Shown here piece by piece: positions 7,938-62,125 of a DNA stretch of 64,000 nt. Source of the stretch: Neckera pumila (Eukaryota; Streptophyta; Bryopsida; Hypnales; Neckeraceae). The stretch lies in the NCBI GenBank assembly GCA_963969595.1, contig OZ018410.1, positions 42,451,413-42,515,412 on the forward strand. The letters run 5' to 3'. The number at the start of each line of letters is the position of its first letter. The first letter of the stretch is position 1. The translations under genes and the position numbers were made by a program. The notes beneath the pieces are model-generated. The model was not told the DNA's origin. It saw nothing but the letters and a program-made list of their open reading frames with translations, and searched no databases.

Positions 7938-10900
7938 TCATACCAGGATCCGAGAATCCGGGATTTCAGGATACATCGTCTTCGTCCCCACCGTGGCGAT
8001 ATTGATGAACTCTTTATACTCATAAAACCTCACAGTAATCAAGTAAACAGCGAAGTTCATCAAGCTCAGAACAGCCATGAGCAAGTAGAAGTAATTCAAA
8101 TGGTTTTGATCAAGATTCTCCTCCTGCAACCATCCTTTCCCACTCACACTCTTCGTAATCCCATTCACAGCTTCCATAAACCCTCCATTCTGAAACAATC
8201 CCAAGGCAATTGGCAACATAGACACCGCCGTCCCCGTGCTCCGCATCCTTACCGGCGACTCGTAGTAGAAAAACTCAAACAACCCCGCGTGCGCAAAGAA
8301 GATCGCTGTGCCCATGATCACCAGAATCGGCAATTGCCAGAAGATGCTCAGCCCTGCACGGGAAGATCTCGCAACATCCAAACGAATGGTCTCTAGAAGC
8401 GCAGCATAGGCTAACCCTACCACGGAAAGCGCCAACCCTGTTCCAATGCGTTGTAAGTGCGATAAGCCGTGTTGGTTTCCAGTGAAGCGGTGGAGAATTG
8501 GCACCAGGAAGAAATCGTAAGCTGCGACTTCGAGCAAGACTACGGCGATGGCGATGGCGGACAGAGTAGCGGGCGGCATTAAGTAGTGCGTGGAGCCGAT
8601 GCGACGCTCCATGGTGTAGCCTTGTGCTGTGGTCCAGGTTTGGACTTGCGCAAGGACCATGTAGAGAAGCATGGTGCTGAAGGCCATGGGGAGGCAGCGG
8701 AGGAGGCCCTTCAGTTCTTCAACCTGAGTTACGGTACAGAGGCGCCAGGGGCTGGGATTCATGGTGCCATCTGAAATTGCAGCTTTATCCAACCATCTGC
8801 AAAACCAGACCAGGGATTGAAATTAGCGTAGCTTCTGATTGTAATTCATACCGACTTGAAAGGAAATTCAGGATTTGAATGAATCAGGGACTAATCGACA
8901 TGAGTAATTCAAGCTCGAGTGATACTTACGACGAGGGAGAGTTTGATCATGTTTGAAACACTGATAAATGACTTAAAGGACGCTGGTCACGTTTTCGTGA
9001 TTTAAGCTTAAGGACTCCAAACTTTTGAAGGAATTTCAGAATTGGAATGAGAGAGGTCAACCTATCAACATGAGTGCTTGATGTGCTTGATGGGAGAGTA
9101 TGTTTACGTGATTTAAGGTTAACAAATTCTTGAACGAATTTCAGACTTTGAATAAAAGAGGTCAACCGATTGACCTAATTGATTCAAGCTCGAGTGCTTC
9201 CTTCCAAATCCGGAGAGTATGAGATCACACATACCTCAATCCCTTGGTATGTCGCAGCACGTAATACGGCATTCCCTCTTGCACCTCCTCGTCCTCATGC
9301 AACTCCCTTCCATCCTTCGTCACATTCAGCTTCCGATTTCTCACCGCCACCACGACCACCTGCACCATCCTCACCACCGCATTCCGCCCTCTATTTTTCT
9401 GATGCCTGTACCGCCCACTCCCCGCCAGAAACCCCAGCGTGGCCAGCACCATGGCCAGTCCGAGGGCTGAAAAAGACCACGTCCAGGACACATTCTCCCC
9501 GAGGTGTACCACGAGCGTGGTGGCCACGATCCCGCCACAGGTGATGGAGACCACCAGCCAGTTGAAGAAGGAAGGGGTCTGGGAGCGCTCCAGGGGATCC
9601 TCCTGGTCGAACTGGTCGCCGGCGAAGGAAGAGAGGCAAGGGCGGATGGAGCCCGCGCCGATGGCGATGAGGTAGAGGGAGAACATGCAGACGGTGTATT
9701 GGGTAGGGGTGGCGGGGGAGCAGGTGGTCGGGGAGTTGGGAATGCAAGAGGGGGCGAGAGGAGGGACGGCGGAGGAGATGATCAAGAGGGAGGCGCCCTG
9801 GGAAACGGGAATGGGAGTGTTAATGTGTGGAAATATATCAGAAGGTTGATCAGAGCAATACCCTGATGTCAAGGTTTGGATTTCATAAGACTGATCAAAG
9901 CAAAAACCCTAATGCATGTCAAGGTTTGGATCTCATAAAATTGATCAAAGCAAAATCCTGACTGATGAGGTTTGGATCTCATCAGATCAGATTGATTCAA
10001 GCAAAACCCTAATTTCAAGGATAAATCCAGGACCTCGGAACATTATAAGGTTGAACATTATAAGGCAGAATCCCAGATGTCATGGTCTGGATTTCATGAG
10101 ATTGATCAAAGGAAAACCCGAATGTCAAGGTTTGAATCTCACAAGATTGATCGCATCATACAGTCACTAATGTACACTAAAACGTGGGGTCCCAATTTTT
10201 CCACTGTGTCAGAGTTCGAATGTGTGAAAAATGTGCGATAATCAACGACATTATGGCAAGCATGCAGGATATTTTTAGAGTGTCACTTTCGAGACCGTCA
10301 TAATAAAGAATCTGTGATTTTGTAAACCGTGCTATTTAATGCATGGTAATGTGGCCAGGTTTTCTAGGATCTATCTGCCTTTGCGAGTGGATATAAGTTA
10401 CTACTACTGGTGAGTGTGTCAGTCTGTAATCTGAGATGGAGGAAGTCCATGGCAATTAGGGTTGGTGTGCATAACATACCACAAGCTCGATGAGCATGGC
10501 AATGACGATGGTCCAGAAATTGCCGAGAAAAGCGTCGGACATGAGCCCTCCCAGCAACGACGTGAGATACGAAGCGCCCCAGTAGTTGGACAATGCAGTA
10601 GCTGCAGGGATGGCCGTCATGTGCATGGGACCCAGCAAGTATAAGCTCAAGTTGAACGCAATTCCCAAGTTCACCACCGCCTCAAACATGGCGGCCCCTG
10701 CAGTACGTGGACACAAAACACATTCAATTCACTATCTTAACAACTGGTCACTCCCATAAACAAGCCGCAGCATACTCTTCAACAAACGCTTTCAATATTG
10801 GAGAAGGATAACAGTTTAATTTCATCTTCATGCTTTGCGATTACAGATCGACTCATACAACTTCATGGTTCTCATTTGGAAGACTCAGCTCCCTCCATTA

Positions 10901-17089: not shown

Positions 17090-18140
17090 TTAATCCCTGA
17101 AGGACCAAGGCCTTTTTTTTGCCAAAAAACACTCAAAACTGCCATTTCTATAGCAAAGAGTAAGAAAATCTGAAAATTGTGTTTTTTTTGCACATTTAAC
17201 CATAGGATCTTACACCTAACTAGTATGAGAATGTGTGGAAAAAATTTCAGAATTTTTGGCCGCACAAATTGCAAGATATTTGCGTTTAAAGAGAAAAACC
17301 CCAGTTTTTCAACACATTGGGGGACTAGAATTTTTGACATTTAACATTTTTAACTTTAACATTTTGCACTGCAGAGTTTTGAATAGAAGTGGCATTAGAT
17401 GAGATTCGGGGTTTTTGGAAGGCTCTGAGTTTCCCTGCTGTCTATTACGATCCCAGACTGCGGGAACACATGCGGGAACACAGTAGCAGCAGCTGGCTGA
17501 CATGGCACAGCGACTGCCACGTCATTTTTTGAATTTTTTTTTGAAATTTTTTTTTTTGACACACCCGTACCGGTGTTCAATGAATCTGGGCAGATCAAGG
17601 AACGGGCCTGAAACGGCCCTCCAAGACCCCCAAATATCATCTAATGATACAAGGTAGAAGGAAAATCTAAATAATTAATATCTCTAAAATGGAAATAAAA
17701 TGTACTATTTCCAATGGTGACATTTCTTTAGCAAGAAAATTATATGAAGCTTTTTTTTGTGAAAAATTATAAAAATTGCATTCAAAAATGAATCCTACAA
17801 GTTATTTTTTCAAGAACTCAAGATGCTCTAATTGCCTGAAAAACAAGATTGTCCATAATTTTCTCATAACAAATCCAAATGGAATGAATCAAATCTTTCC
17901 AGAGAGACAAAAATATAATCCATGAGAAAAAAAATTCAAATTTTTGAATTTTTATTTTGTTGCCCCTTCTCCCTCCCTCTTCCAAGTTCCAAGCTATTTG
18001 AGGCATAACTTTTGTTCCTAAGCATCAATTGAAAAATATTATATTCCCACAAAGCTAATTAAAACAAAATTTCAGCCCGTAGGTACCTTCTCAAAATTCC
18101 CATTTGTCCCCTGAAGGGACAATGGTCCTTTAGGGGTTAA
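17090..18140. mobile_element. Same family, copy B, with another MITE nested inside
   Basis: The left end is TTAATCCCTGAAGGACCAAG and the right end is GGTCCTTTAGGGGTTAA. The interior ('aaaacactcaaaactgccat', 'aaacaagattgtccataa', 'cccatttgtcccctgaaggg') matches copies at 59284-60213 and 61197-62125. A 254-bp element of a different family sits inside at 17393-17646. No transposase frame is present. Confidence 0.85.
17393..17646. mobile_element. CATTAGA-type MITE nested in copy B (254 bp)
   Basis: The ends read CATTAGATGAGATTCGGGG and, inverted, CATTAGATGATATTTGGGGG. It is the sister of the element at 47657-47908. It interrupts sequence that is continuous in the other copies of the host element, so it inserted later. 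Confidence 0.75.
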
Positions 18141-26959: not shown

Positions 26960-29067
26960 CTACGCCCATCGCCCTCCGCCAGCAACTAACGTCAGCAGTC
27001 TCACAAAGGTGAGGGCGTACGGGACAACGAGAGACCAGCCCTTGTGATTGCTAGGGGAGTTTGTGATAGTGGGCAAGTGCGTGACGCCCAGAACCCATTG
27101 CAGGATGGCAGCCACCATAATGAGAGCTCGCATCAGAGTGGCAACCCAATGTGCTGCTGCCGCCACAACCTTGGCCCACGAGAGAGCGGACAACACCAGC
27201 AACAACAAGTCGACGAAGCCACACAGAAAAGTGAACACTCCATATCGGGGTGATGTCGTTCTGGAATGTTCCACTCGCCAGTAGTGGACGTTGACAGAGC
27301 TCGCCACAATCGCCACCAGACACGAGATTGCTGCAGCCCAGATTGGCACGCCCCTCAAGTAGCTGCTTCCTATCAAGTGGAACTGTGGCGTGATGGCGAT
27401 GATCGCGATCCAAACTAACACGAGCAGCGCTTCCAATGCGCTGGCTATCATCAGCCTGTGCTTCGGTAGCGACAGGCGACCATGGATCGGCTCCAGGGTC
27501 ACGACGATGAAGCGATCTTCTAGTGACATCGGACAACTGACTTTGCAGCAGAACGACGACAACGGGAGCTTGGTTTGTGTGGAATCGACCATGTACCCAC
27601 GCATGGCTCGCCTTGTGAGAAGAGCGCTGGAGAATGCATCCGTTCGGAATAAAATGACAAGCGCGCTGGACAAGAGGAACGCGCAGAGGCGCGATAGCCA
27701 CCATAGTGCTGGATCGAACTCGGTATCGCTGTGGACTGGGGTGTCCTCACCGACTAGGCCTTTGCGGTAGCAGACGGTGAAGGGATTCTCGTTTCCACGC
27801 TCTTCGTCATCTTTGACAGTGCTGGTCTCGGAGATCGTGGGTGCCCATGTCACGCTCTCTTCGTTTGCTGGCTCTACGAGCATTAGCCCAGTGTGTCCTT
27901 CGGCAGCGAAAAGGATGGAAGCGCCCTGAGCGAGCGCTCTCCTGCAACCAGGTCGGCGGTAATCCTCGGGACCTAGAGCGCCTTGAATGCCTGCGCCTGC
28001 GTCCTGGTAGTATGCACCGTTGGCGTTATGGCAATTGCGGCCGAAACAGGAACTGCAGATGAGGGCATCGTATGTGTCGTCGACGCGGAAGACTGTTCCA
28101 GGAGCCACGGTGGTCAAGTGCTTGCTCACACCGTCGATGCGTTCGAATTTTAAGCATTTGCACGCCACCAAACATGAACATTTTGTGATTACGGCCTTGG
28201 GATCACGTGGGGGAGGGCATAACCACGCCACAAGCAGCAATTCCGCCCTCTTGGCCGTCGTTGCTCCGTAGTATGAAAACATCTGATGTGCCCACGCTTC
28301 CGAATTCTCTTCCACCAGCATGAGCACTTGACTGAGCGAGTGTTGGTCGCCAACAGCTAAAGTCTTCACGCTCTCCTCTGATTCCCCTCCCAATAACGTC
28401 AATAAGTCTCTTGTGTTCGTCTCCGCGTCCAACCTCCGCCGCATTATTGTCGTTACGAGCGCCGTGACGAGGCCCAAAGCCGTGAGACCGGCGTCCAAGA
28501 AATTGGCCGTGTCCGCAAGAAGAAGATTGGATTCCTGAGCGCGGACTAGCGGTACCCTGCACCCCAATGCTATCACCAACCATCCTCGCACTCCAAGTAT
28601 CCTGCAGCATCGAGGGATAGGAATATGTATTATCATGAGTGAATATATAAAACGCGGTGGCAATGGAACCGCCCTTAAATCGGTGGAAGCAACTTCAAGA
28701 ACAAGAATTTCAGGTAGACCCTTGTGAAAAGGGACTTTGCTTCAATCTGGAATTTTGACCCATGTGAAAAGAAATTGCACCTAAAATTGCATCAGCTGCA
28801 ACCCTAAACTCTAAACCCATAAATAAATAATCCTCCTGGCTCATGCACACGTATGTAGATGATCAATCGAACAACAGGAAAGAACTTACAAAACTAACTA
28901 AAGGAGAAGAATGAATGATCCATTGGAGTGCTTGGAAACACAAAGAAAGTGCAGATCGCAGAAGTGTCAAACCTGTGAAAGTCGTGCGGCGGAGATGCTG
29001 GAGCTGATCCGAAGAGATTGAAGAACGAGGCTGTCGTTTGGGAGAAGAGTTCACAGCCAGCAGCCAT
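26960..29067 (-). CDS. Unrecognised multi-pass membrane protein, two exons, 578 aa
   Basis: Exons are 28973-29067 and 26960-28601. Donor TTTCACAG|GTTTGA and acceptor ATGCTGCAG|G join in phase 2 to give ..PPHDFHRILGVRGW... The first ATG follows an in-frame TGA upstream. I do not recognise the family. Visible features: hydrophobic stretches near residues 61-85, 332-350, 416-435, 449-468, 485-507, 518-537 and 556-574, suggesting about seven membrane spans with most at the C-terminal end. Between the first and second is a long soluble part with clustered cysteines (CSCLVACKC near 173-181; CSSCFGRNC near 214-222), possibly metal-binding or disulphide-linked. Then comes an acidic stretch (KDDEERGNE). 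Exon 2 is much richer in G and C than its surroundings and is long and uninterrupted, so coding status is convincing. The start could shift if another 5' exon exists. Confidence 0.75.
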
Positions 29068-31743: not shown

Positions 31744-32238
31744 CACCATCTTTCAACACACTACAATGAGAAAACATGGGCTTACAATATTTCACCTATT
31801 TCAAACAATGTTCAGCGTATTAATAACATATGTGCAATTGAGTGATGGTGGAAGAAGGTTATTTTCTCTAATAAGGGAATAGAAATAATGACAATTGCAC
31901 TATTTTTGGTTAATTTTTCATCAAGTTTGGAATGAGTAAAAACTAAAGAAGTATAGATTACAATCTAACTTGTTTTTGATAAATAGGCAAACCTATTTTT
32001 GAGAAGTGTAAAACTAAAAATGGATTATTCCTACTTGTTTTTAAAAATAAATACCACTTGCTTGCTTGTTAAATTAATAGTTCTTTTCTCTTACATGTTT
32101 GCTTGTTAGATTTATATTTGTTTTTTCTTACTTGTTTGGTTGTTAAATAAATAAGTACTAAGTTGTTAGAATATGTCATAATTATGAATATATCAAGGTG
32201 GATTTACTAATAAATGGTTGTCTTCTTTTATAATTTAG

Positions 32239-32659
32239 ATGCACTGGAGCTTTTGGGGCTTATCGACACCCATTATGCCATGGTAGCAAGCTATGAGAGC
32301 CGGCTTGCTACCCTAGATGCGGAGGTATTGAGGTTTCTTAAAATTTTCATCCATGCTCTTCTTGATTTTGGGCGGGCCGGCAATGCGGAGCGTAGACTTG
32401 AATCTCATTTAGAGTCTCAAGTCTTCTTCATGTCTACAGTGTACTTTACACCAAGGCAAATGGACACTGTTCTTGCCTTCCCGAGCAAGAAAGGTCTACC
32501 CTTACAAGAAGTCTTGGAGGCGAAATTTGAGGATGGAAAAGAAGTGTGTTCTACCTATGCATTGGCACCAATTCTAATGACGCACTTCAATGTCCAAAAA
32601 GGCTTCAAACACTCCAAAGAGCACCAAGATTACTACAAAGCCTTTTGCAAGGTTTGGAG
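32239..32659 (+). CDS. Orphan coding-like exon, about 140 codons, unrecognised
   Basis: I do not recognise the family. The frame is open for 421 bp between an acceptor (TTATAATTTAG|AT) and a strong donor (TTTGGAG|GTATGT), phase 1 in and phase 2 out. The peptide reads like a folded helical protein: DALELLGLIDTHYAMVASY, LATLDAEVLRFLKIF, then VLAFPSKKGLPLQEVLEAKF. The next acceptor (TGATGTGACAG at about 32800) would add only RKRR and a stop inside a tandem-repeat array. No 5' exon or start was found. GC content is clearly above the flanks. It may be an exon of a gene with distant partners or the remnant of a captured gene. Confidence 0.4.
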
Positions 32660-32789
32660 GTATGTTTTATATTTTATGTAGTAATTATTAGTATTATTAC
32701 TAAATTTAATATGTATCAAAATATATCAATCACTTCATGTGTTCTTTGAATGTATTATGCATTTTTAAATTTGTCTTTTGGTGCATTTT

Positions 32790-35539: not shown

Positions 35540-35789
35540 CTCCGTTCCTAAGGGACAGATTCACGGAGTGAGACATGAAAGTGTCTTTTAATTTATGTGT
35601 TGCAGTTGATGAAGCATTCCGTCCGAGTTAGTTCTTGACTTTTGAACCCACTCGCAGTTTCGCGGCAGCAAGAAATTCACTGAGTGAGAGAAGAAAATGT
35701 TAAGTCGCAGCAAGCGCGTAACTGAACATCGACAGCATTTGCAAGTGGGACAACAAACGTGGTGGTGCTCAGCCTGTCGGTACTTAACT
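35540..35789 (+). other. Left edge of the duplicated TIR locus
   Basis: From about 35600 the sequence matches 42440 onward: 'gatgaagcattccgtc', 'gaacccactcgcagtttcg', 'cagcaagcgcgtaactgaac'. This marks the start of the block shared by the two TIR loci. It is probably promoter-side DNA. Confidence 0.7.
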
Positions 35790-36690
35790 TAGCTCAGTCT
35801 GGTGATCGAGAGCGAAGTATTTTTTCTTCACAAGGAAGAAATCAGTGTCTCGAAAATCCCCTTCACTTGAGCCTCTTTGATGATCTGCTTGAATATGCAG
35901 ATCAAGTTGGCTTAGGGTTCCGGCAATTGTGTCAAACTTGTCTGTTGTTCTAGCTAATAGTATCTTTGCTGTGTTGATTTGCAACACAGTCTTGCAATAG
36001 GGATTTCTATTTCTGTACCGAATCGGGCGTCACTGAGCCGGAAGTGTTTAGTCTGGAAGGAAAACGGTGTCTGGAAAACAGTCCATGAGCAGAGCATCTC
36101 GTGCCTCTTTGATGACCGGCTTGAAAGGAGAGCGAGTTTAGCGTTCCTTCAATTGTTCCAATCTTGTCTGTAACCCTAATAGTTTCGTCGAAGTATTGAT
36201 TTTCAACTCAATTTTGCAAAATTCGATCATTTCTATTTCTGTACTGACTCTTGTCTCGCTGAGGCTGAGGTATTCGATCTTCAAGGAAGAAAATTGCCTC
36301 AAGAAACATCCTTCAGCAGAGCCTCTTCTGCCTAGCACTTTCATAGCCGGCTTGAACGGAGAGTTAGTTTAGGACTCCGACCATTGTTCCAAACCTGTCT
36401 ACAATCCTACAAGTTTTGTCGACGTATTGATTTTGAACACAAGCTTGCAAAATTCATTTCTACTTCTGTACCGACTCTTGTCTCACTGAGGCTGAAGTGT
36501 TTCGCCTTGAAGGAAGAAAGGTGTCTGGATAGCATCCGCCAGGAGAACATTGCCTGCCTCTTTGATAACAGACTAGAATGCACAGTTATTACTTACTTTA
36601 CAGTTCCAACAATTGCTCCAACACTGTCTAGTATTCTACTAGTTTCGTCGAAGCTTCCTGGTTTAGGGTTGATCCAGAATTTTCAGAGCC
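35790..36690 (+). repeat. ~225-bp degenerate tandem repeats upstream of the first TIR gene
   Basis: About four units share 'tttctatttctgtaccgac', 'cttgtctcactgaggctga', 'ggaagaaa..gtgtctgga', 'gcctctttgatgaccggct', 'gttccgacaattgttcc' and 'agtttcgtcgaagtattga'. One marker falls near 36015, 36238 and 36466, giving spacings of about 223 and 228 bp. The array reaches almost to the ATG, so it forms the 5' leader, the promoter or both. Confidence 0.8.
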
Positions 36691-36703
36691 TCCGTCCTTT
36701 GCC

Positions 36704-38587
36704 ATGTCCACCACAGTAGAAATCGAGCTGGTGCCGTCCGAAGAGGATCGCCTCCTCGAACCTGTCCAGGAGGCCACTACAGGAGACATCGAGCTGGTCC
36801 CATCCAAAGAGGATCATCTCCTCCAACCCGTCCAGGAGGCCTCCACAATAGACATCAAGCTGGTGCCGTCCGAGGAAGATCGTCTCCTCGAACCCGTCCC
36901 CGAGCTTCCGCTGCAATCCAAGCACTCGATCTTTCTAAGCCACAGCGGAGCCCAAAAGAACTTCGTGGAGCAATTGTGCTTAGACTTGGAGTACCAACTC
37001 CACCACACGCCCTTCTTCGACAAGCGTCCCGACAGTCTTCCCAAGGGCGAAGTCTTCGCGCAGTACATCTTCCAAGCGGCGCAGCAGTGTGAGCTCGCGA
37101 TCGTGGTGGTGTCGGAGGAGTATTTCAGTCGCAGCAAGTGGCCCATGCTGGAGCTTTCGGTGCTGGTGCACTCGAGTAAATGCAAGATTTTACCCTTGTT
37201 TTTTGGCCTGTCATGCAAGGAGTTCGGGGATGCTGAGCGAAGAGAGAGATGGTTCCAGACGTGGGACGCCTGGGCGCAAATCGATCCTCGTGTGAGTGTG
37301 AAAGATTGGAAGCTTGCGTTGCGGGAGGTGGGTCGGAGAAATGGGCTGGAGTTTGTGGCGGCAGTCGGGGAGGTGGGCTTTCGGACGGAGGTTTTGAAGA
37401 TTGTTTCTGCCATCGTGCCGGCCGAATGGGTGAAGGTGGGGAAGGAGAAGGTGAGCAGCCAACCCTAAATAAATATTTTGGTCAAGTTTCAAGCCTCTAG
37501 AAAATTGAAGTAAACAGATAGAAATTTTATTAGGTAGTACCTAATAAACAAAACAAGTATGCAAAATTTGTTACAATTGGTAGCCTCAAGCTGATCTCTA
37601 AAGCCATCCCAGTAAAAAATGACATATGAAATGAGAAGTTAAGTTTGTGGCAAAATCAAGCGAAAGAATCTAGTAGCCGTTGTTGTACACTAGTGATGTC
37701 TGAATTTTTAGTCACATGTAAAGAAATTGGTGCTAAACTTAGGTGAAATCTGAAAATGATATTTGAATACTGTTTTTAAAAAAATTTAAGAGATTATTAA
37801 TGGCATTTTTTTTTTCAAAACATGAAACTACATTAGTATTACATAACATTTAGTAGCTCTACAATGATGGTGTGCTATATTCCACACCCCAACAGTGTTT
37901 CATCAGTAGCTACTGATAAATTGGACAGGTGGAGGATGTAGAAGCATACCATCACTATAGAACCAAGGCAAGATCAACACATGCTATTGAATGTTATGTA
38001 TGATGTTTTTTTTTCTAAACCCTTGATTAAGCATGAATGAAGAAGAAAATTTAACCATTGCGGTTATGTCTTGAAAGTACAACCTTCTTATAGAAATAGC
38101 ATCCCTTGCTACTTTAAAGGCTTGATATATTATTTATTATACCAAGGTTCTACTTTTTTATTATCTAGTTTGTCATTTCATTCATTGTTAAAATTTTGTG
38201 ATGTGATATTGTTTGGATTGGCGATAATCTAACATTGTTTTTTGTTGTGATTTTATCCTTAAAGAATCTCGATTTAGTATTGTTGTAAAGATAGATAGTA
38301 TCTAATTTTGTCAATTGTTTATTTTAAATAGGCTTTAGTATATTTATAATGTATATTATTAACATGGTGATTTTTGTGTTTTGAATCATGAACAGGTTCC
38401 TCCACATGTGCCTATTTTCAATGGAAGAGGAGTATTGTCCAACATACTTTTCATTATTCTCAAAGTTATTGGTGGGATAGTTGGTTATGTAGTTATTGCT
38501 ATTTTATTTTTTCTCTTGTTTGTGAAAATCATTGTCCCTATCTTTGACTATTTTACATTACCAAAAGACTTTCCCAAAGGCTTTTGA
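36704..38587 (+). CDS. TIR-domain protein with acidic repeats and C-terminal membrane anchor, 312 aa (first copy)
   Basis: Exon 1 is 36704-37450 and exon 2 is 38396-38587; donor GAGAAG|GTGAGC, acceptor CATGAACAG, phase 0. Residues 6-71 are three 22-residue repeats of the form DIELVPSEEDRLLEPVQEAS. Residues ~72-243 are a TIR domain: IFLSHSGAQKNFVEQL, the BB-loop region FFDKRPDSLPKGE, CELAIVVVSEEYFSRSKWPM, then LELSVLV with Glu150 at the place of the catalytic glutamate of NAD-cleaving TIRs, and ILPLFFGLSC. Exon 2 adds a hydrophobic stretch (~266-299) and a short tail, FTLPKDFPKGF. There is no NB-ARC, LRR or kinase. The expected role, by family, is immune signalling through NAD+ cleavage; here probably anchored with TIR in the cytosol. 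Unspliced reading would end five codons past the donor. Exon 1 is GC-rich, exon 2 AT-rich. An AATAAA follows the stop at about 38609. The TIR call is firm; the membrane exon rests on the splice sites and on its conservation in the second copy. Confidence 0.82.
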
Positions 38588-38639
38588 TGTTAGGTACATG
38601 TTTATTTCAATAAACAAATGATGGAATTTCAAACAATTA

Positions 38640-39122
38640 ATGTACTTTTTTCAATGGTGATATTGTTCCAGCAAGATATCATAACCTTGTGACCCTTTTT
38701 ATTTTTTTAAATTGTGAAAATTGAGTCCAAAAATGAGTTCAACAAGTTATTTTTTCAAAAAAATGCTCTAATTGCTTGAAAAACAAGATTGTCCATAACT
38801 TTCACATAACAAATCCAAATGGAATAAATCAAATCTTTCCATGTAGATAGAAACATAATCTATATGAAAAAGAATTAAAAAATTTTATTTTCAATTTTTT
38901 TTGGAGGGTTATTTTCTGCCTGCTGAACTAAAAAAAGGTTTTTTTGTACCATGTTATTTGCTTTCTTGATTTCAATTGAAATAAAAGTTATAATTAAAAA
39001 AGAAATGTGTTTTTCTAACTTCACAAAAAAATTCAGAAAATCACAACAAATATTGAGACCATAGGAGCCTATCCAAAATCCATTTTGTCCCATGAGGGGA
39101 CAATGGGACTTTAGGGGTTAAA
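38640..39122. mobile_element. Truncated TTAACCCC-family element downstream of the first TIR gene
   Basis: The right end GGGACTTTAGGGGTTAA and the inner part ('aaacaagattgtccataact', 'ttgtcccatgaggggacaat') match copies B, 59284 and 61197. The left half is missing; similarity starts at about 38645. It lies directly after the 3' UTR. Confidence 0.65.
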
Positions 39123-39715
39123 CTAAATTTTTATATTTGTACCATTAAGATAGGTGTTTGTTTTATTTTTTGTGGTGTATTGAAATGTAAAAGGTCTTGG
39201 TTTAAAATGACGGATGCTCTGATGTGTGATTAATTAGTGGTTAAGTGAACCCAAATAAAATAAATATTACAAAGTTAATTTATTAAATATAAATAAATTT
39301 GGGTTTGAAATAGTTTTTCAACTTTCTAAGGTCAAAATTGTGTTTTTATTACGTAGTATATTTTATTATATATTTTTTTAAATATTACAATTATGGGTGA
39401 TGTAGATGAAGTCACACAAATTATATAAAAAAATCATTGCAACTCCACTTGTTTGACTACATTGCATAGCTAATGTCTTGTAGCATCATGATTCCATGGC
39501 TTCATTTCATTGTTTTAGTTGTTTGGCCTCATGACTCCATGGCTAAGTTGTATATAAGAGCATTGCCAACGATTCTTGCTATGCTTGGTTGGCCCTAGCT
39601 TGGAAGTAGCCGAGAGCATTTTCCTCCCCCACTGCATTGTCAGATATGAAAAGTGCAAAGGCTCGCCAAATATGACACTCCAAACACCAGCATACCAATC
39701 TTGCTAGTTGTTGAT

Positions 39716-40654
39716 TTAATCCCTAAACCACCCAAGCACCATTTTTTGGCAATATAGTGATTTTGGGCAGCTCACTATAAACAAAACTTTTATTTTTGTT
39801 CTTTGAAATTTTCACACAACACTTTCCTAAGGAATAGCTTTAAGGCCCAACAATTTTCATAACTTTTGACAGCATGGTTAAAAAGTTATGGTATGATATG
39901 TGATTTTCAATGTTTGGCGGGCAGCTACAAAAATTCTTAAAAAATTACTTTTAAAAAAAATAAAAATTTGAAATTGATTCTCTAGATTTATATATACATT
40001 GAAAGCTTTGAATCATTCCATTTTTATTAATGAGATGAAAATTATGATGAGTTTTAGTTCATGGGTAGTTATGGAATCTTTACTCTAAAATAAACTTTGA
40101 AGTCCTTTATTTAACTCAGTTTTTAACATTTTTGAAAAAAAACAAAAATATTGGGTGTAGATTGTTTTTTACAACATTACAACTGTTGGGATTGGCAACT
40201 TTCAATTTCAAAATTAAAATTTTGACAATTTAGTAGTTTGAAGCATTAGTAGTTCTCTACTTCTTTCTACTTACTATTTTTTTTCCTATATGTTGTACAA
40301 CTCCAAATGATCCAAACTTTTTCAAGCATGTATTCAACTTGTCTAGAAAAATGAACTTAAAGAGTAACCACCATTTTGGACAATTTTTTTATACAAATGT
40401 GACCTTGTGAAGGGCAGCTGCCCGTTTTTTTGCAGGGACAAAAAAAGGATTTTTGTCAATTCAAATGTTATTATCTTGCAATGTACGAGGTGGAAATTTC
40501 TGAAATTTTTTCCACATCTCAAACCAATTTACTATAAGATCCTGTGGTTACATGTGTCCAAATTTTATTTTTCTTAACACTTGGTACTTGTATTAGAAAT
40601 GGCAGTTTTGGAGCGCTTTTGGTGAAAACATAGTCAAATACATTTAGGGGTCAA
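39716..40654. mobile_element. TTAACCC-type element, second subfamily (copy D), nested
   Basis: The left end is TTAATCCCTAAACCACCC and the right end is CATTTAGGGGTCAA. It is highly similar along its whole length to 21249-22180, for example 'ttggcaatatagtgattttg'. Confidence 0.75.
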
Positions 40655-40779
40655 AACACATACTACGTATTTTTTTTGGTTGTAATCCTATTCAATAGCT
40701 TATGGGCCAATGTACCATCTTGGGTGGCGTGACAACTTTTCTAATGAATGAGCATGGGGGATGTGAGTGGGGAGTGATA

Positions 40780-41966
40780 CTACTAGAAAAGGGCCCCTAA
40801 TCAACAAAAGATTAATTGATTTGTATTGATTTTGACAAAAATAGAAATCTATATGCTGAGCTAGACGCTCTTTTTTGGACAAAAATAGCAATCAGCAGAA
40901 ATATGTTAATTGTGACCCAAATCAAAATATGCTTAGTTGATTTGGCTTTACTATCCGTTAAAAGTACTCTAAGTGATATTTCAGACCCCATTTAAGCATA
41001 GTAGAACACCTTTTTTCAAAGATCTTTGAACTAAGAAAAAATAGAATATCAAACCAAATTTCATCTTACAAAATTCATTTGAGGTTTTAAGCCTCCAATC
41101 AAAAGTTATGGGCAAATTTCAAAGAGTGGTTGGAAGGGATATCTTTATTTGACAATTAAAAACTTCTTCTTTGAAATTTGCTCATAACTTTTGATTGAAG
41201 GCTTAAAACCTCAAATGAATTTTGTTAGATGAAATTTGGTTTGATATTTCACTTTTTTTTAGTTCAAAGTTTTTTGAAAAAAGTTGTTCAATTGTACCTA
41301 AATAAGGTCTAAAATTCTACTTACAGTATGTTTTCTACTTTTGATTTAACTATGAGCACTTGAGCTCCTACTCATCCTAATCAAACATATCTCACATGGT
41401 TTGTACTACCTCCTACCACTCCACTTGTATAAAGAGCTTGCCTTCTCCATTCGTCTTACAACAAGGTAAGTGACACTTCAAGTTCAAATGTAAAGTATGT
41501 ATTGAGTTGTTTTGAATATAGTATTCAATTTTTTAAAATTAAATTAAATTTTAATCTAGTTAAATTTTAATCAATTTTATTCTTAATTAATTTTTAAATT
41601 ATATTTAAGTTTTAAATTGTAATTAATTTAAAATTTAAAATTAAATTTTGATTAAATTTTATTTTATTATTATTTATTTTTTAATTTAAAATGCAAGTTT
41701 AATTAAAATTTAAAGTTCAATTTTATAGTCCTAATCACATGGCTAGCTTGCTGATGTGGCAGCCTTGCTTGCATGGTGTTTTTTGCCTATGTGGCAGTTC
41801 ATGTGGCGGAAATTTGAATAATAAAAATTTGACCAAATTACGAACAAAAATCAACATAGATGTGTGGATTATTGTCTGAATCGAAATGTCCTAATCAATT
41901 GTCCTAACCAATATATATAAGTTAATTTTCATGTTGGATTAGACACTGTTTTTTCTTGCAGTGCAT
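40780..41966. mobile_element. CACTA-like element with a long internal foldback, nested
   Basis: The left end is TACTAGAAAAGGGCCC and the right end, inverted, is CACTGCAAGAAAAAACAG. The match is partial and no clear target duplication was found. Its segment at about 41395-41470 (CACATGGTTTGTACTACCTC, then a TATAAA-like box) matches about 3090-3155 of the element at 2196-4715, linking the two. Confidence 0.5.
40940..41370. repeat. Long inverted repeat (hairpin), arms about 190 bp
   Basis: The core arms 41022-41133 and 41172-41281 pair with few mismatches: 'gcctccaatcaaaagttatg' against 'cataacttttgattgaaggc', and 'aaaccaaatttcatcttac' against its near-inverse. Weaker pairing extends outward through 'agaccccatttaagcat'. 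The loop is about 40 bp. Confidence 0.85.
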
Positions 41967-42354
41967 AAGGCCGAACGAGAGGTGATGTCTAGAGCCTGCG
42001 TCAGACCGTTTGGTGAACCCTACTTCGCGAGAAACATTGGCAATGCTTTAAGTGTCTCTTCACACCTAGTGCACCCTACATTTGTCAATATGTTAATATA
42101 TATCACCAAATGGTTGAGCTAGTTCCGACCTGAAGGTCATTATTGAAATTAAATTAAGTTATTTCAACAATTCGATGCCTTCATTCACAAGAATATTAAA
42201 TGGGAGGCAAATTTATTATTCTGAAATTTGTATGAGGCCCATTCTCTAGAATAGATAGTTCGGCATTTGCAGAATTTATATATTTGTTTCCTCACTGTCT
42301 CTCAAAGTAAGAAACTTTGAGACTTTTATCGACTTTTATTTTTTATTTAATTTT

Positions 42355-42600
42355 TGCCTGCAGGTTGCGTGTCGCACCTTTACTAACCGAGTGAGAGATG
42401 AAAAACTGTCTCTTTTACGTGCTGTTCCCTTACTACACGGTTGATGAAGCATTCCGTCGGAGTTCTTTCTTGACTTTCGAACCCACTCGCAGTTTCGAGG
42501 CAGCAAGAAATTCCCTGAGTCAGACAAGATAATGTCGCAGCAAGCGCGTAACTGAACTTCGACAGCAATTGCAAATGGGACAACATGCGCTCAGCCTGTC
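42355..42600 (+). other. Left edge of the second TIR locus
   Basis: This matches 35540-35789 in the same orientation, including 'gatgaagcattccgtc' and 'cagcaagcgcgtaactgaac'. It fixes the start of the duplicated block. Confidence 0.7.
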
Positions 42601-43340
42601 AATACTAACTTATTTCATTCTGGTGATCGAGAGCGACGTATGCTGTCTTCATAAGGAAATTTAGTGTCTCGCAAATCTCCTTCACTTGAGCCTCTTTAGT
42701 GGTCTGCTTGAATGCAGAGTTAGCTTAGGGTTCCGACAATTGTATCAAACTTGTCTGTTGTTCTGGCTAGTAGTATATTCGCTGTAGTGATTAGCAACAC
42801 AATCTTGCAAGAAGCATTTCTATTTCTGCACCGAATAGTGCGTCACTGAGTCTGAGGTATTTAGTCTGAAAGAGCATCTCGTGCGTCTTTGATGATCGGC
42901 TTGAACGGAGAGACCTTCCTGGTTCTGTACCGGCTCTTGTCTCACTGAGGCTGAAAGTGTTTAGTTTTGAAGGGAGAAAATTGTCTGAAGAAACATTCTT
43001 CCGTAGAGTATCTTCAGCCTAGCTCTTTCATGGCCGGCTTGAATGGAGAGATAGTTTAGGATTCCGACCATTGTTCTAAACCATTGAACACAAGCTTGCG
43101 AAATTCATTTCTATTTCTGTACCAACTCTTGTCTCACTAAGGCTGAAGTATTTCGTCTTGAAGGAAGATAGGTGTCTAGACAGCATCCGCCAGCAGAACG
43201 TCGTTTGCCTCTTTGCTGACCGACTTGAATGCAGAGTTACTTTAATTTAGGGTGCCGACAATTGCTCCAACCCCGTCTACTATCTTACTAATTTCGTCGG
43301 AGATTCCTGGTTTAGGGTTGATTCAGAATTTTCAGAGTCT
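42601..43340 (+). repeat. Degenerate tandem repeats upstream of the second TIR gene
   Basis: The same unit as 35790-36690, but shortened by deletions: the 'tctgtaccg..cttgtctcac' marker falls near 42828, 42924 and 43116. It ends close to the ATG with 'ggtttagggttgat.cagaa', conserved with the first locus. Confidence 0.75.
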
Positions 43341-43352
43341 CCGTCCTCTGCC

Positions 43353-46052
43353 ATGTCCACCACAGTAGACATCGAGCTGGTGCCGTCTGAGGAGGATCGT
43401 CTCCTCGAAACTGTCGAGGAGACCATCACAGTAGACACCGAGTTGGTGCCATGCAATGAGGAACGTCTCCTTGAAACCGTCCAGGAGGCCTCCACAATAG
43501 ACATCGAGCTGGTGCCGTCCGAAGAGGATCGTCTCCTCGAAACCGTCCTGGAGCTTCCGCTCAAATCCAGGCACCCGATCTTCCTAAGTCACAGCGGAGC
43601 CCAAAAGAATTTCGTGGAGCAACTGTGCTTGGACTTGGAGCACCAACTCCACCACAAGCCCTTCTTTGACAAGCGTCCCGATAGCCTTCCCAAGGGCGAA
43701 GTCTTCGCGCAGTACATCTTCCAAGCGGCGCAGCAGTGTGAGCTCGCGATCGTGGTCGTGTCGGACGAGTATTTCAGTCGGAGCAAGTGGCCCATGCTGG
43801 AGCTTTCGGTGCTTGTGCAGTCGACTAAACGCAAGATTTTACCCTTATTTTTTGGCCTGTCGTGCAAGGAGTTTGGGGATGCGGAGCGAAGGGAGAGATG
43901 GTTTCAGACGTGGGACAAATGGGCCCAAATCGATCCTCGTGTGAGTGTGAAGGATTGGAAGCTTGCGTTGCGGGAGGTGGATCGGAGAAATGGGCTGGAG
44001 TTCGTGGCGGCAGTCGGGGAGGTGGGGTTTCGGAAGGAGGTCTTGGGGACTGTTTCTTCCATCTTGCCGCTCGAGGCGGTGCACGCGGACGCGGACGCGG
44101 ACGTGGTGGAGGTGAAGGTGAGCATCAGCGCTAACCCCTTAAGTCCTTATTTGAGCTTCTTGGAATTTGTTTTGATTTGAATAAGTAGCCAAGATTTTGA
44201 TAAGTTTCATCAAAGTTTTTTTATCGTAACTGTACAAATTCAAATTGAATGTGTTAGAGATCATACGTGCAAAGAAAACACAACAATATCACTTATAGAT
44301 TGAAAGATTATAATATTTGATTATAAACGGGTTAAAACTGTGAAAGTGATTTGATGTCTTTCAATCTTCTATTCACACGTTAGATCTAAAAATTTGGCTT
44401 TCAAGAAATTATAAGCTTAACCCTTAAACGCCGGGTTGGTGGCCGTGAAAATCACCCTTTTGCAAAACCGTGGGAACAATTGGCTTAAAAAAATGAAAAA
44501 GTATTCATTGGAAGTCAAACTACTGTAAAGGACCTTCCTTTCCACAACAAAATTTGGAGGATGAATAGTTGTGTTTCTGTCCTACACAGGAGATTCTCTT
44601 GTCATTCATTGGACGCAGAACGTCCACCTCGACGTTCAAGGGTTAAAGGACATAATATGCATAATCTGAATCACTTTACAGCTTCTTCAAAATCTACTCT
44701 GCATTTAAATGAATTTCTAATGTGATTTTTTCTTGAAGATCTAGGCTAGTATATTTGAGGCTCCTTCCAAGAGCCCTTAACACAAAAAGAATCAAAATTT
44801 ACTATAGACACCCATGCACAAAATCTTGAATAGAAAAATTATAAGTTTTCATTTTCAAAATTGGATTTTTGATGCTAAAACTAGACTCCAAAAGAAATTT
44901 TCAAAAACATAAACTACTAAAAATAGTAATTAGGTAAGGTTTTATTTAACTTCAAAGTTTAGTCTACACTTGAATTTGGTGCCTTGAGCATTTAGGGGCT
45001 AAATTAGCGTAAGAAGAGGACATCATAATATAGAACTACATTAGTATTATGATGTCCTTTCCTTGGACCCTCAATTAAGCATGATTGAAGAATAAGCTTT
45101 AACCATTGAAGCTATGTCATGAAAGTACAACCTTTTGAAGGACAAAAGGTAGAGCCACCCATTCCCAACCAGTGATCCATTCCCAACCAATGACCCATTC
45201 CCGACCTATAGGTGCACATATTTTTTACCAAGCTTAGAATGTTTGTTTTTTTCCTTTTCAAGTTTGGAATTGTTAAATACATGACACCTGTCCCAAGCTG
45301 TGAAAAATAAAGTAGAAAATAATGATTAGAGAAAAAATTATTGAATGATCAGAATTGGAAGAGTCTAAAGGTTGGCCATGGGTCTAGAGCACTTTTTGCC
45401 TCCCAAAATTCATAGTAATTTCAGTTCAAGCAATAAAATTACCAAATTTTTTGCAATCCTTATCATTTGTATTGATGTACCTCTAAAAAATATTTGTTTT
45501 GCCTTCACTACTCCAGATCATGTTGAAATTTCTCATTTGGTCGGTTATGGGTGATTCTACCTTAATAACCCTTTATACTTCTATGCAATAATCTACTACT
45601 CATTATAACAATATTCTATTTTTCCGTTACTTGGTCCTTCATTCATTTATTGGATTATTCCTTGATGTGATATTGTTTGGAGTAGTAACAATTTAATATT
45701 GTTTTTTGTTGTGATTTCATCCTTTGAGAATTTAAATGTAGTAGTATTATAAGGATGGAGAGTACCTAACTTTTATCATTAATCTATTAGAAATAGGCTT
45801 TACTACATTATTAACAAGATTTTTGTTTTTGTTTTGAATCATGAACAGGTTCCTCCACACATGCCTATTCTTGATCGAATAGGAATATTGTGTAGACAAT
45901 TATTTGGAGGACGTTTTTTTATTCTCAAAATTATTGGATGGATACTTGGTTACATAGTTATTGCTATTTTATTTGCTATCTTGGCTTTTAAAGTCATCTT
46001 TCCTATCATTTTTTATTTTGTGTTACCAAAAGGCTTTCCCAAAGGCTTTTGA
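43353..46052 (+). CDS. TIR-domain protein with acidic repeats and C-terminal membrane anchor, 322 aa (second copy)
   Basis: Exon 1 is 43353-44117 and exon 2 is 45849-46052; donor GTGAAG|GTGAGC, acceptor CATGAACAG, phase 0. The layout equals the first copy: three 22-residue repeats (residues 6-71; the middle one diverged, DTELVPCNEERLLETVQ), a TIR domain (~72-241) with FLSHSGAQKNF, FFDKRPDSLPKGE, SKWPMLELSVLV (Glu150) and LPLFFGLSC, and an Ala-Asp linker (HADADADV). Exon 2 follows with a hydrophobic run (~279-312) and the tail FVLPKGFPKGF. Between the copies the TIR domain differs at only about a dozen positions, such as T102K, E138D, C160R, A189K and G210D. The 1731-bp intron is longer than in the first copy because it carries MITEs. 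The 3' flank with AATAAA and 'gatggaatttcaaac' is conserved. Unspliced, the frame would run 20 codons past the donor. Expected role: TIR NADase/immune signalling at a membrane; inferred. Confidence 0.82.
44417..44646. mobile_element. 230-bp TTAACCCTTAAACG MITE in the intron of the second TIR gene
   Basis: The ends are TTAACCCTTAAACGCC and, inverted, TTAACCCTTGAACGTC. The interior is the reverse complement of the element at 53198-53422. It is absent from the first copy's intron. Confidence 0.8.
44646..45001. mobile_element. Possible second TTAA..TTAGGGG element in the same intron
   Basis: It starts at GGGTTAAAGGACATAAT, overlapping the end of the previous MITE, and closes with GCATTTAGGGGCTAA. 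The ends match the family only loosely. Confidence 0.35.
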
Positions 46053-47044
46053 TGTTAGGCACTTAAATATTTCAATAAATGAGTGATGGAATTTCAAACA
46101 ATTAATGTGTTTTTTTCATTGAGAAAATGAGGATTCAAAATTCAACCTATAGCAAACTTACTCCAATTTCTAACTTTAATATCAAGCCATATTTTGCCTA
46201 ATACAAAATATAGATTGAAAGTTTTTCATATGCATAATTATTCAAATCTCCAAAAATTGAATGCAAAATTTCTAAATCATTTGACAAGAGATGATTAATG
46301 ATTTCAATAAATAAGTGCTGGAAATCACAAGCCTCTACTACATTAAATACAACCATATTCAAGATAATTCAAAGTTCTAGTTACTTATTTATGTGTTATT
46401 TCTAAATTGAAATGTTATAAATTTGTGTACAAGTCAAATAATTATTATCCAACTTCTGTCCAATCTAATATACTTTATTTTCTAATGTTTGGCATACAAA
46501 ATTGAATACCGTACTTTATTAGCAATTTCGGCACTCAAGAGCCAAATATTTAATTTAAATAATAAAAAATGTTTAGGCAAGACTAAAATTTAGTTTATGC
46601 TATGTAGGCAACCATTCAAAACTGAATAAGGTATAGATAAATGGTAAAGTTTGGATACTTCATTCAAAATTTTAAAGAATACAAGAGGTTATTTGTTCTT
46701 AGAATATATAGATTAATGAGATAAGATTGTCATTAATGGCTAATATATGTCACTAAAGAAGGATACCATGGTTCTTCCTCTGTCAATTGTAATTCCCAAA
46801 TATTAGGCAAGACATAGGGATAATAGAGTTAATTATAATGTATATGCAATGAGGGACTAGGAGCCAAAGTTTGAGATAAACACAAGACAAAAGTCCTTGA
46901 AGCATTCCCTTGTACAAACTAGGATTTAATTTACAATTAACCCTGATTTCTTAAAAAAACTAGGCAAAAATAATTTATATTATTTTTCTATCAAAGCTGC
47001 TAGGAAGATACAATAGTTTCCATTCTATTATTTATCATACAAGC
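46053..47044. other. AT-rich intergenic region, no supported gene
   Basis: The first ~60 bases are the conserved 3' flank of the second TIR gene. The rest shows no open frame of note and no clear terminal repeats. Confidence 0.5.
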
Positions 47045-59263: not shown

Positions 59264-59283
59264 CTACAAGAGAATGGGGTGTT

Positions 59284-60213
59284 TTAACCCCTAAAGGACC
59301 AAGGCCCTTATTTTGCCAAAAAAACACTCAAAACTGTCATTTCTATAGCAAAGAGTAAAAAATTTTGAAAATTGTTTTTTTCTTACATCTAATTTTAGGA
59401 TCTAATACCTAACTAGTATGACAATGTGTAGAAAAATTTCGGAATTTTTGACTGCACGGATTGCAAGATATCTGCGTTTAAAGTACAAAAAACAAGTTTT
59501 CAGCACATTGTGGGACTAAATTTTTTGAATTTGAACATTTTTAACTTTAAATTTTTGCACTACCAAGTTTTAAGCTTTAGATCTTTATAGTGGGGAACTG
59601 AATTGAGAGCCTAGCAAAAAAAAACTAAAATAAAAAAAACTGAATTTTCATTATTAAAAAAATTGTTATGTAGAAGTATGTACGAGATAGAAGGATAATC
59701 TAAAATATTAATATCTTTTATATGGAATTAAAATTCACTAATCCCTACGGTGAGATTGTCCTAGCAAAAAAACTAAACCACATGGAACTTCTTTTTTTGA
59801 AAAATTGTAAAAATTGCATTCAGAAATGAATCTTACAAGTTAATTTTTTCAGGAAGATGCTCTAAGTGCCCGAAAAATAAGATTGTCCATAACTTTCTCA
59901 TAACAAATCCAAATGGAATGAATCAAAACTTTACATATAGACAAAAATATAATCTATAGAGAAAGAAATTCAAAAAAAATAAAGTATTTTTTGCAAAATT
60001 ATTTTTGCTCCCCGCTCTCCCCTGTTTTGAGCTTATTTGGGCATAACTTTTTTTCCCGGGCATTGATTGAAAATTTTTTATATTCCCACAAAGATTATCA
60101 ATTTTTCTATCTTCCAAAAAAGTTTTAAGAAATCAAGACAAAAATTCAGCCCGTAAGTACCTGCCCAAAATCCCACTTGTTCATTGAACAAACACTTGGT
60201 CTTTTAGAGGTTT
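59284..60213. mobile_element. TTAACCCC-family element (copy F, 0.93 kb)
   Basis: The left end TTAACCCCTAAAGGACCAAG is intact and the right end CTTTTAGAGGTTTA is diverged. The interior matches 17090-18140 without its nested MITE, and 61197-62125. Confidence 0.8.
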
Positions 60214-60380: not shown

Positions 60381-61196
60381 TGAGAGTGACTTTCTTGTCA
60401 TCCTCTATAATTTTTGAAGCATAAATCCCATGAACTTGAATTTTTTATAGGAGATGTCTAATTTGATGGTAGTCAAATCCCTTTTTTTTAGAGATAAAAA
60501 AAAAATCATTTTTGTTTTAATGTCACACTATGAGGTTTTGAGGGGGTTACTACGTTAGGAGTCTCCAAATTTAATGATCTAGAGCTGAAATTTTCATGGT
60601 CTACTTGCATAGTAGGAACGTATAATCTTACTGAAGAGAATCTAAAAATATATTATTTTGTATCTTCCACATGTGTGCAAACAACACTTCCATTGCACAC
60701 AATATCTAAAAAACAATGAAGATGGTTCTAAGACCAATATTTTGGTGAAATTTCATCACTATGAATTCTTCCCAAATGGCCAATTTTTTTCGTTTTTTTT
60801 AGAGCGCTTTGCTTATTTCTTACAAATTAAATGTGAAACCACGTTGGAAGTATTTATTTGCATGAAATTTTGCACTTTTCTAGTTCTTCTACTTAGAGAA
60901 TTTTTCCATGTTTTTTCTAGAATACCTTCTTCTTAAAGGTGTATATATTAAACATATTTTCACATTTTTTCCTAATTATAAAGTACTCCAGGAAAAAAAA
61001 TGGATATTGTGCAAAACGATACAAAAATTGAATGCCCTTTCTTGCAATGATCCAACAATAAGGTAGGACGCTTTGAAAGCAAGCATCTAAGGGTTGGTCC
61101 GCCTTTCTCATGTTGTTTCTTGGATGGAATTACTTTTAGTTCATTTGTCAAACAAAAAAAATTGATTTTGATTGTAAAAAAAGTTGTTTTGTACTT
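60381..61196. other. R1 dispersed-repeat copy
   Basis: About 60400-60970 is similar to 500-1140; about 60830-60960 also matches 4080-4200. From about 61080 the sequence switches to the repeat shared with 22728-23010. No gene is seen. Confidence 0.5.
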
Positions 61197-62125
61197 TTAA
61201 CCCCTAAAGGACCAAGGCCTTTTTTCTGCCAAAAAACTCTCAAAACTGCCATTTCTAGAGCAAAGAGTAAAAAATTAAAATTTTTTTTTTTTTGCACATC
61301 TAATCATCGGATCTTATACCTAACTAATATGAAAATGTGTGGAAAAAATATCGGAATTTTTGACTACACAGATTGCAAGATATCTGCGTTTGAAGTGAAA
61401 AATACAAGTTTTTCAGTATATTGCGGAACTAGATTTTTTGACTTTGAACATTTTTAACTTCAAATTTTTTGCACTACAGAGTTTTGAACTTTAAATCTTT
61501 ATAGTGGAGAATTGAGTTGAGAGTCTAGTAAAAAAAAGATATTCAAAAAAACTTAATTTTCATTCTTAAGATAATTGTTAAGTAGAAGTAGGTACAAGAT
61601 AGAAGGAAAATCTAAAATATTAATATCTTATATATGGAATTAAAATGCACTAATCCCAAAGGTGAGATTGTTCTAGCACAAAAACTAAACCATGTGGAAC
61701 TTTTTTTTTTTTTAAATTGCAAACATTGCATTCCAAAATGAATCCTACAAGTTATTTTTTTCAAGAAGATGCTCTAATTGCCCAAAAAAGCAAGATTGTC
61801 CATAACTTTCTCAAAAAAAATCCAAATGAAATGAATTAAAGCTTTACAAATAGACAAAAATATAATCTATAAGGAAAAAAATTAGAAAAAAAGAATAATT
61901 TTTTTGCAAAATTTTTTTGCTGCCCTTCACCCTTGTTTTGAGCTTATTTGGGCATAGCTTTTGTTCCTGGGCACCAATTGAAAAAAAATTTATATTCCCA
62001 CAAAGCTTATCAATTTTTCTATCTCCAAAAAAAGTTTCAAAAAATCATGACAAAAATTCAGCCCGTAGGTACCTGCCCAAAATCCCATTTGTCCCTTGAG
62101 CGGACAATGGTCCTTTAGAGGTTAA
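61197..62125. mobile_element. TTAACCCC-family element (copy G, 0.93 kb)
   Basis: The left end is TTAACCCCTAAAGGACCAAG and the right end is GGTCCTTTAGAGGTTAA. It interrupts a dispersed repeat that is uninterrupted at 22728-23010. Confidence 0.85.

Follow-up and report, generated by a model that had tools for sequence, protein, structure and literature searches.

Plant proteins with a TIR domain, an immune-type domain that can cleave NAD+ as a signal of infection, are usually treated as soluble enzymes or as the heads of receptors. TN13 and RPP1 are examples of membrane-anchored plant TIR proteins. TIR-only proteins are defined as having fewer than 400 residues and no other Pfam domain (PMC9806590), and the condensates of RPP1-TIR, RBA1 and TX14 were reported not to coincide with membrane markers (PMC10972746). 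Flax L6, a TIR-NB-LRR protein, carries a membrane anchor at its N-terminus (PMC7414095). A 2022 review (PMC9153377) names short transmembrane regions among the additions to TIR proteins, in its first architecture class. The two genes described here are located in tandem in a 64,000-nucleotide stretch of Neckera pumila DNA (contig OZ018410.1, positions 42,451,413 to 42,515,412; "the window" below). Each has a first exon encoding acidic repeats and a TIR domain and a putative second exon encoding a hydrophobic C-terminal segment. Judged by its sequence, the product is probably a tail-anchored TIR-only protein and an NAD+-cleaving enzyme (NADase).

The predicted spliced products have 312 residues (copy 1) and 322 residues (copy 2), with 249 of 322 aligned columns identical. 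They fall within the TIR-only definition of PMC9806590, as no further Pfam family scored above its cut-off in either copy when the exons were scanned separately. Like the plant TIR-only proteins RBA1, TX14 and BdTIR, they have fewer than 400 residues, a catalytic-type glutamate and no detected NB-ARC or LRR, but they add a hydrophobic segment at the C-terminus and acidic repeats at the N-terminus. They resemble L6, which is also membrane-anchored, in their TIR sequence, and differ from it in the C-terminal position of the hydrophobic part, in having no detected NB-ARC or LRR, and in the AA loop, which reads S-H-S-G instead of F-R-G. The combination of one TIR with a short membrane segment is that of the short TIR-plus-transmembrane class of PMC9153377, the consulted section of which names no plant example of this layout and makes no mention of acidic repeats. 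A preliminary description of this DNA knew of no named plant family with this architecture. Searches of the openly licensed literature brought up no plant family described as combining acidic repeats and a TIR with a C-terminal anchor that is spliced on. Proteins of the TIR-only and TIR-plus-transmembrane kinds had already been described. The parts are familiar and their combination is little described.

Organization of the two genes

Both genes lie on the plus strand (Table 1). The coordinates and two-exon anatomy given in the preliminary description, as well as its claim of a tandem duplication, agree with the sequence, and a tandem pair of homologous genes with a TIR exon and a hydrophobic second exon is confirmed as a real feature of this DNA at the sequence level. 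Exon 1 has 249 codons in copy 1 and 255 in copy 2, and exon 2 has 63 and 67, respectively. The first exons have a G+C content of 57% in both copies, the second exons 33% and 32%, and the putative introns 30% and 32%. The donor AAG/GTGAGC and the acceptor CATGAACAG are common to both copies, and both junctions are in phase 0. The acidic repeat consists of three units of 22 residues, each encoded by 66 bp. The duplicated unit extends from the 5' flank (from 35605 and 42440) to just past the 3' untranslated region (UTR). No third TIR copy was found in the window by tblastn, apart from matches with E of at least 3.1.

The genes do not look like the TIR-NB-LRR or the TIR-NBARC-TPR (TNP/XTNX) kind: the exon-2 frame ends, AATAAA follows 22 bases on, and NB-ARC is absent from the 19 stretches scanned against Pfam (these include the four exons, with one frame scanned twice, and cover a minority of the 118 listed open frames). 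Neither the interval 37469-43352 nor the DNA past 44180 contains the start of a frame of 120 residues or more.

The second exon

Scored against a donor consensus, both donors match at 8 of 9 positions, and 14 of the 3218 GT sites on the plus strand reach a score of 8 or 9. Three acceptors in 37500-39600 and six in 44200-46800 yield at least 40 in-frame residues; only those at 38396 and 45849 yield the same product in both copies. On both strands of the AT-rich DNA of the window there are 1587 CAG or TAG candidate acceptors. A frame of at least 60 codons is opened by 24 of these, and for two of the 24, 38396 and 45849, the 19-residue Kyte-Doolittle mean is at least 2.7, a threshold that was fixed after these two exons had been seen; the two acceptors are homologous and thus represent one event. 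The copies differ in length by 12 bases within exon 2, in frame, and no stop occurs in either.

The peak 19-residue hydropathy is 3.06 in copy 1 and 2.94 in copy 2, both within exon 2, while the exon-1 part reaches at most 1.29 and 1.15, and residues 1-70 at most 0.29. By hydropathy, the products therefore have the single hydrophobic segment near the C-terminus, with none at the N-terminus, that characterizes tail-anchored proteins. AlphaFold2, run on the two-sequence alignment, models exon 2 of copy 2 as a single helix spanning residues 6-58 with a mean predicted local distance difference test score (pLDDT) of 73.7, the block 31-40 being at 92. Taken together, hydropathy and the model suggest that there is one anchor, located at the C-terminus and followed by a short tail. 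The end of the protein reads YF(T/V)LPK(D/G)FPKGF; the LPK-type end following a hydrophobic segment had been recognized in the preliminary description, whose motif, (F/V)xLPKxFPKGF, needs this small correction. A search of the PDB by sequence with exon 2 of copy 1 gave 0 matches. A Pfam match of the same exon to a phlebovirus glycoprotein, at 12.9 bits against a cut-off of 25, was rejected as a chance hydrophobic match.

The TIR domain

The Pfam TIR_2 profile scores 48.5 bits (1.5e-12) in copy 1 and 51.4 bits (1.9e-13) in copy 2, and the TIR profile 33 bits (6.6e-08) in each, all above the respective cut-offs. The best PDB match is the flax L6 TIR (E 2.6e-05 and 3.8e-05); bacterial TIRs, with E from 2e-04 upward, and further plant TIRs come next. 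W146-x3-E150 aligns with the Trp-x3-Glu of L6, whose glutamate is presumably the catalytic one; in that stretch 31 of 92 aligned columns are identical. W146 and E150 are invariant in both copies, the exon-1 products being 84% identical.

The PDB alignments with L6 and RPV1 extend to residue 214 or 215, and those with bacterial TIRs end at 172-173, before the stretch common to L6 and RPV1. This gives a lean toward a plant-type rather than a bacterial-type TIR sequence, but a weak one, because the alignments with the plant proteins RUN1 and AT1G72930 also end early (161-172) and because the TIR_2 model outscores TIR. The latter is a likeness to bacterial TIRs such as the Paracoccus TIR (3h16), as is W-P-x2-E-L, which occurs in the bacterial sequence too. 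PADLOC PDC-S66 matches at 2.3e-08 and 3.4e-09, and NCBIfam Retron_TIR (Retron_TIR_antiphage) at 5.7e-05 and 2.4e-05, far under its cut-off. The question of plant type or bacterial type has no bearing on the reading of the products as anchored TIR proteins. A prokaryotic or viral origin was rejected: no relative was found in the collections genome_contigs (pattern matches numbered 120 and 159, and tblastn confirmed none of them), viral_contigs (four pattern matches) and plasmids, where the contig scans can detect only close relatives.

Read by eye, the AA loop is S-H-S-G in both copies (FLSHSGAQ), unlike the Phe-Arg-Gly motif of the TIR-NB-LRR proteins (group 2 of PMC7075850). Strand A has a Ser (FLS) and the BB loop reads LPKGE, again by eye and without the alignment of PMC7075850. 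In that paper, group 16 is marked by a Gly in strand A, and group 21 by a Cys at the start of helix C and a Pro-Gly in the BB loop.

Conservation between the copies

The ratio of nonsynonymous to synonymous substitution rates (dN/dS, omega) is 0.21 for the TIR (95% interval 0.10-0.42, 168 codons) and 0.35 for exon 1 overall (0.20-0.58). The homologous 3' block gives an alignment of 546 columns that is 74% identical. Its best 37-nucleotide window, with one mismatch, is 38558-38594, comprising the tail, the stop and the first bases of the 3' UTR. Among the 12 best windows listed, those that have two mismatches and do not overlap the tail window cover the acceptor and the beginning of exon 2 (38371-38416), where a run of 30 nucleotides (38377-38406) is identical. 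The best window was matched in 1.8% of 5000 column shuffles, the width of 37 nucleotides having been picked after the tail had been seen.

In neutral simulations (4000 runs from each copy) the exon-2 frame remained free of stops in 22% of the runs started from copy 1 and 11% of those started from copy 2. A change in hydropathy as small as that observed occurred in 2.5% and 3.0% of these stop-free runs, respectively. An earlier, simpler simulation left 23% of the runs stop-free, and 4.7% also had a peak hydropathy of at least 2.9. The intron part 37501-38000 is at background identity between the copies, 46-59% per 100 bases. By sequence comparison, exon 2 as a whole is weakly constrained except for its two ends and its hydrophobicity.

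Proposed function and alternative explanations

The reading judged to lie somewhat on the probable side is that the product of these duplicated plant genes is a TIR protein with a tail anchor, whose tethering favours NAD+ cleavage. Exon 1 would supply the cytosolic part. This consists of the acidic repeats, three units of 22 residues that probably form a flexible or binding stretch, and of the TIR with its catalytic-type glutamate. After splicing, exon 2 would add one long hydrophobic helix and a very short, weakly basic tail. The anchor would be inserted post-translationally, leaving the TIR domain toward the cytosol. With TIR domains crowded onto a single membrane surface, their self-association and hence NAD+ cleavage would be favoured, possibly in an immune role. 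Bringing a TIR domain into proximity in a chimera is reported to switch on plant defence (PMC7414095), and TIR-domain proteins are reported to be activated by condensation (PMC10972746). The interpretation put forward in the preliminary description stands as regards the TIR, which passes both profile cut-offs in each copy, the two-exon layout, the C-terminal hydrophobic segment, evident from the hydropathy peaks, and the tandem duplication; its proposal of NADase signalling on a membrane stays conditional, with the glutamate conserved.

Several observations weigh against this reading. Exon 2 has diverged almost neutrally, with a dN of 0.256, a dS of 0.323 and an omega of 0.79 (95% interval 0.41-1.75). 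Taken part by part, omega is 0.98 and 0.68, and 0.97 in the last 12 codons, each value having a wide interval. Its DNA identity (146/189) is not above that of the intron end (147/182) or the 3' UTR (58/72). For four further measures the share of simulated runs stayed above 5% (copy 1 and copy 2 start): hydropathy correlation (10% and 9%), changed residues (11% and 8%), second-position changes (8% and 6%) and peak hydropathy (26% and 11%). Hydrophobic peptides arise easily from AT-rich DNA, and structure prediction readily turns such a peptide into a helix when it is modelled by itself. For exon 1 the model, also from a two-sequence alignment, is unusable (mean pLDDT 34.4).

An omega not different from 1 and a conservation no higher than in the flanks are what exon 2 would show if the gene consisted of exon 1 alone, encoding a soluble TIR-only protein, and exon 2 were a hydrophobic frame that happens to be open in the duplicated AT-rich DNA. 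This is quite unlikely in view of the acceptor and the tail with its stop, which are the best conserved spots in the 3' block, of the indel, which keeps the frame without a stop in either copy, and of the combined test of length and hydropathy, which among the 1587 candidates singles out these two exons. The first exons might also be used in two ways. Both frames remain open beyond the donor, to stops at 37468 and 44180, so that intron retention would give a soluble TIR protein of 254 or 275 residues and splicing the anchored form, the choice switching the protein between cytosol and membrane. However, the read-through ends differ between the copies in length and sequence (SSQP; SISANPLSPYLSFLEFVLI) and the intron is at background identity; there is therefore no sign of selection on the read-through end, and such a switch is considered unlikely.

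TIR-NB-ARC-LRR genes usually carry the TIR in the first exon, as is the case here, and with nothing NB-ARC-like and no longer frame downstream the two copies could be taken for decaying fragments of such genes that have lost the downstream part. This is very improbable: the TIR frame is intact and has been under purifying selection between the copies, and the S-H-S-G of the AA loop stands against the Phe-Arg-Gly given for the TIR-NB-LRR group in PMC7075850. The same source reports that some single-domain plant TIRs (group 21) have been proposed as adaptors and that some plant TIRs are unable to cleave NAD, both of which would suit an anchored TIR that has no enzymatic role and serves as a scaffold or adaptor, drawing other TIR proteins to a membrane. 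Such a role has a low probability, as both E150 and W146 have been kept despite an exon-1 identity of 84%, although two copies are a small sample.

Surroundings of the genes

A 231-bp tandem repeat of 2.6 copies occupies 35974-36569 in the 5' flank of copy 1, and related units at 42690-43302 precede copy 2; it is possibly a regulatory repeat. Upstream of copy 2, TATAAAG at 41428 is followed at 41466 by the only 9/9 donor among the 3218 GT sites and by TTGCAG at 41956; the region (41428-41961) is a possible leader exon of copy 2 or a separate transcript. Between the two genes, the stretch 40965-41328 shows a match of about 80% to its reverse complement and resembles a foldback or miniature inverted-repeat transposable element. 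A dispersed repeat family has members at 17090-18140, 38639-39122, 59282-60212 and 61195-62125, the second of which sits at the 3' end of TIR copy 1.

On the minus strand, 7941-9872 contains parts of a transporter gene of the NPF (NRT1/PTR) type (Pfam PTR2). The best PDB matches of the piece 7941-8822 are NPF2.10 and NRT1.1, and the frame 10459-10728, which has no Pfam match, resembles the start of this transporter by eye. This NPF/NRT1-type neighbour indicates that the DNA of the window is plant DNA. An open frame of 593 residues with 55% G+C and no Pfam match lies at 26963-28741 on the minus strand, and a plus-strand frame at 32214-32678 has a weak match to Pfam KIND (18.8 bits against a cut-off of 26.7). 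The tRNA and Rfam scans gave nothing.

Table 1. Positions in the window of the features of the two TIR genes
Feature	Positions	Strand	Basis
5' flank of copy 1, shared with copy 2 (36237-36703: 367/429 aligned bases identical)	35605-36703	+	self-comparison
Copy 1 gene, stop included	36704-38587	+	two-exon model
Copy 1 exon 1: acidic 22-residue repeats (residues ~2-66) and TIR (Pfam TIR residues 73-216)	36704-37450	+	translation, Pfam
66-bp tandem repeat, 2.9 copies, N-terminal acidic 22-residue units of copy 1	36708-36899	+	TRF
E150 codon of copy 1, aligned with the Trp-x3-Glu glutamate of the flax L6 TIR	37151-37153	+	PDB sequence alignment
Copy 1 putative intron, GTGAGC...AACAG	37451-38395	+	splice-site match between copies
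Copy 1 exon 2: predicted hydrophobic anchor, LPKDFPKGF end, stop	38396-38587	+	translation, hydropathy, conservation
AATAAA in conserved 3' UTR of copy 1, 22 bases past stop codon	38609-38614	+	3' block alignment
5' flank of copy 2, matching that of copy 1	42440-43352	+	self-comparison
Copy 2 gene, stop included	43353-46052	+	two-exon model
Copy 2 exon 1: acidic repeats and TIR	43353-44117	+	translation, Pfam
66-bp tandem repeat, 3.0 copies, acidic 22-residue units of copy 2	43357-43553	+	TRF
E150 codon of copy 2	43800-43802	+	translation, copy comparison
Copy 2 putative intron	44118-45848	+	splice-site match between copies
Copy 2 exon 2: predicted hydrophobic anchor, LPKGFPKGF end, stop	45849-46052	+	translation, hydropathy, AlphaFold2, conservation
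AATAAA in conserved 3' UTR of copy 2, 22 bases past stop codon	46074-46079	+	3' block alignment

Implications

Tentatively, the putative tail-anchored TIR proteins may belong to a family of a plant lineage in which the TIR is under purifying selection and the anchor changes fast, save for the junction and the last residues. The duplicates might then be sent to different membranes, and tethering would take the place of NB-ARC and LRR in bringing TIRs together. Surveys of TIR-only proteins need not have caught such an anchor, because TIR-only is defined by Pfam domains.

Seed-free plants are said to lack EDS1 (PMC11218826). If the plant is seed-free, the gene pair would also be relevant to the way in which TIR signalling operates when EDS1 is missing. 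A tail anchor that is natural and encoded in the gene, if true, would help in asking where TIR products are needed, and would offer a simple system for testing whether crowding on a membrane is by itself enough to activate a plant TIR.

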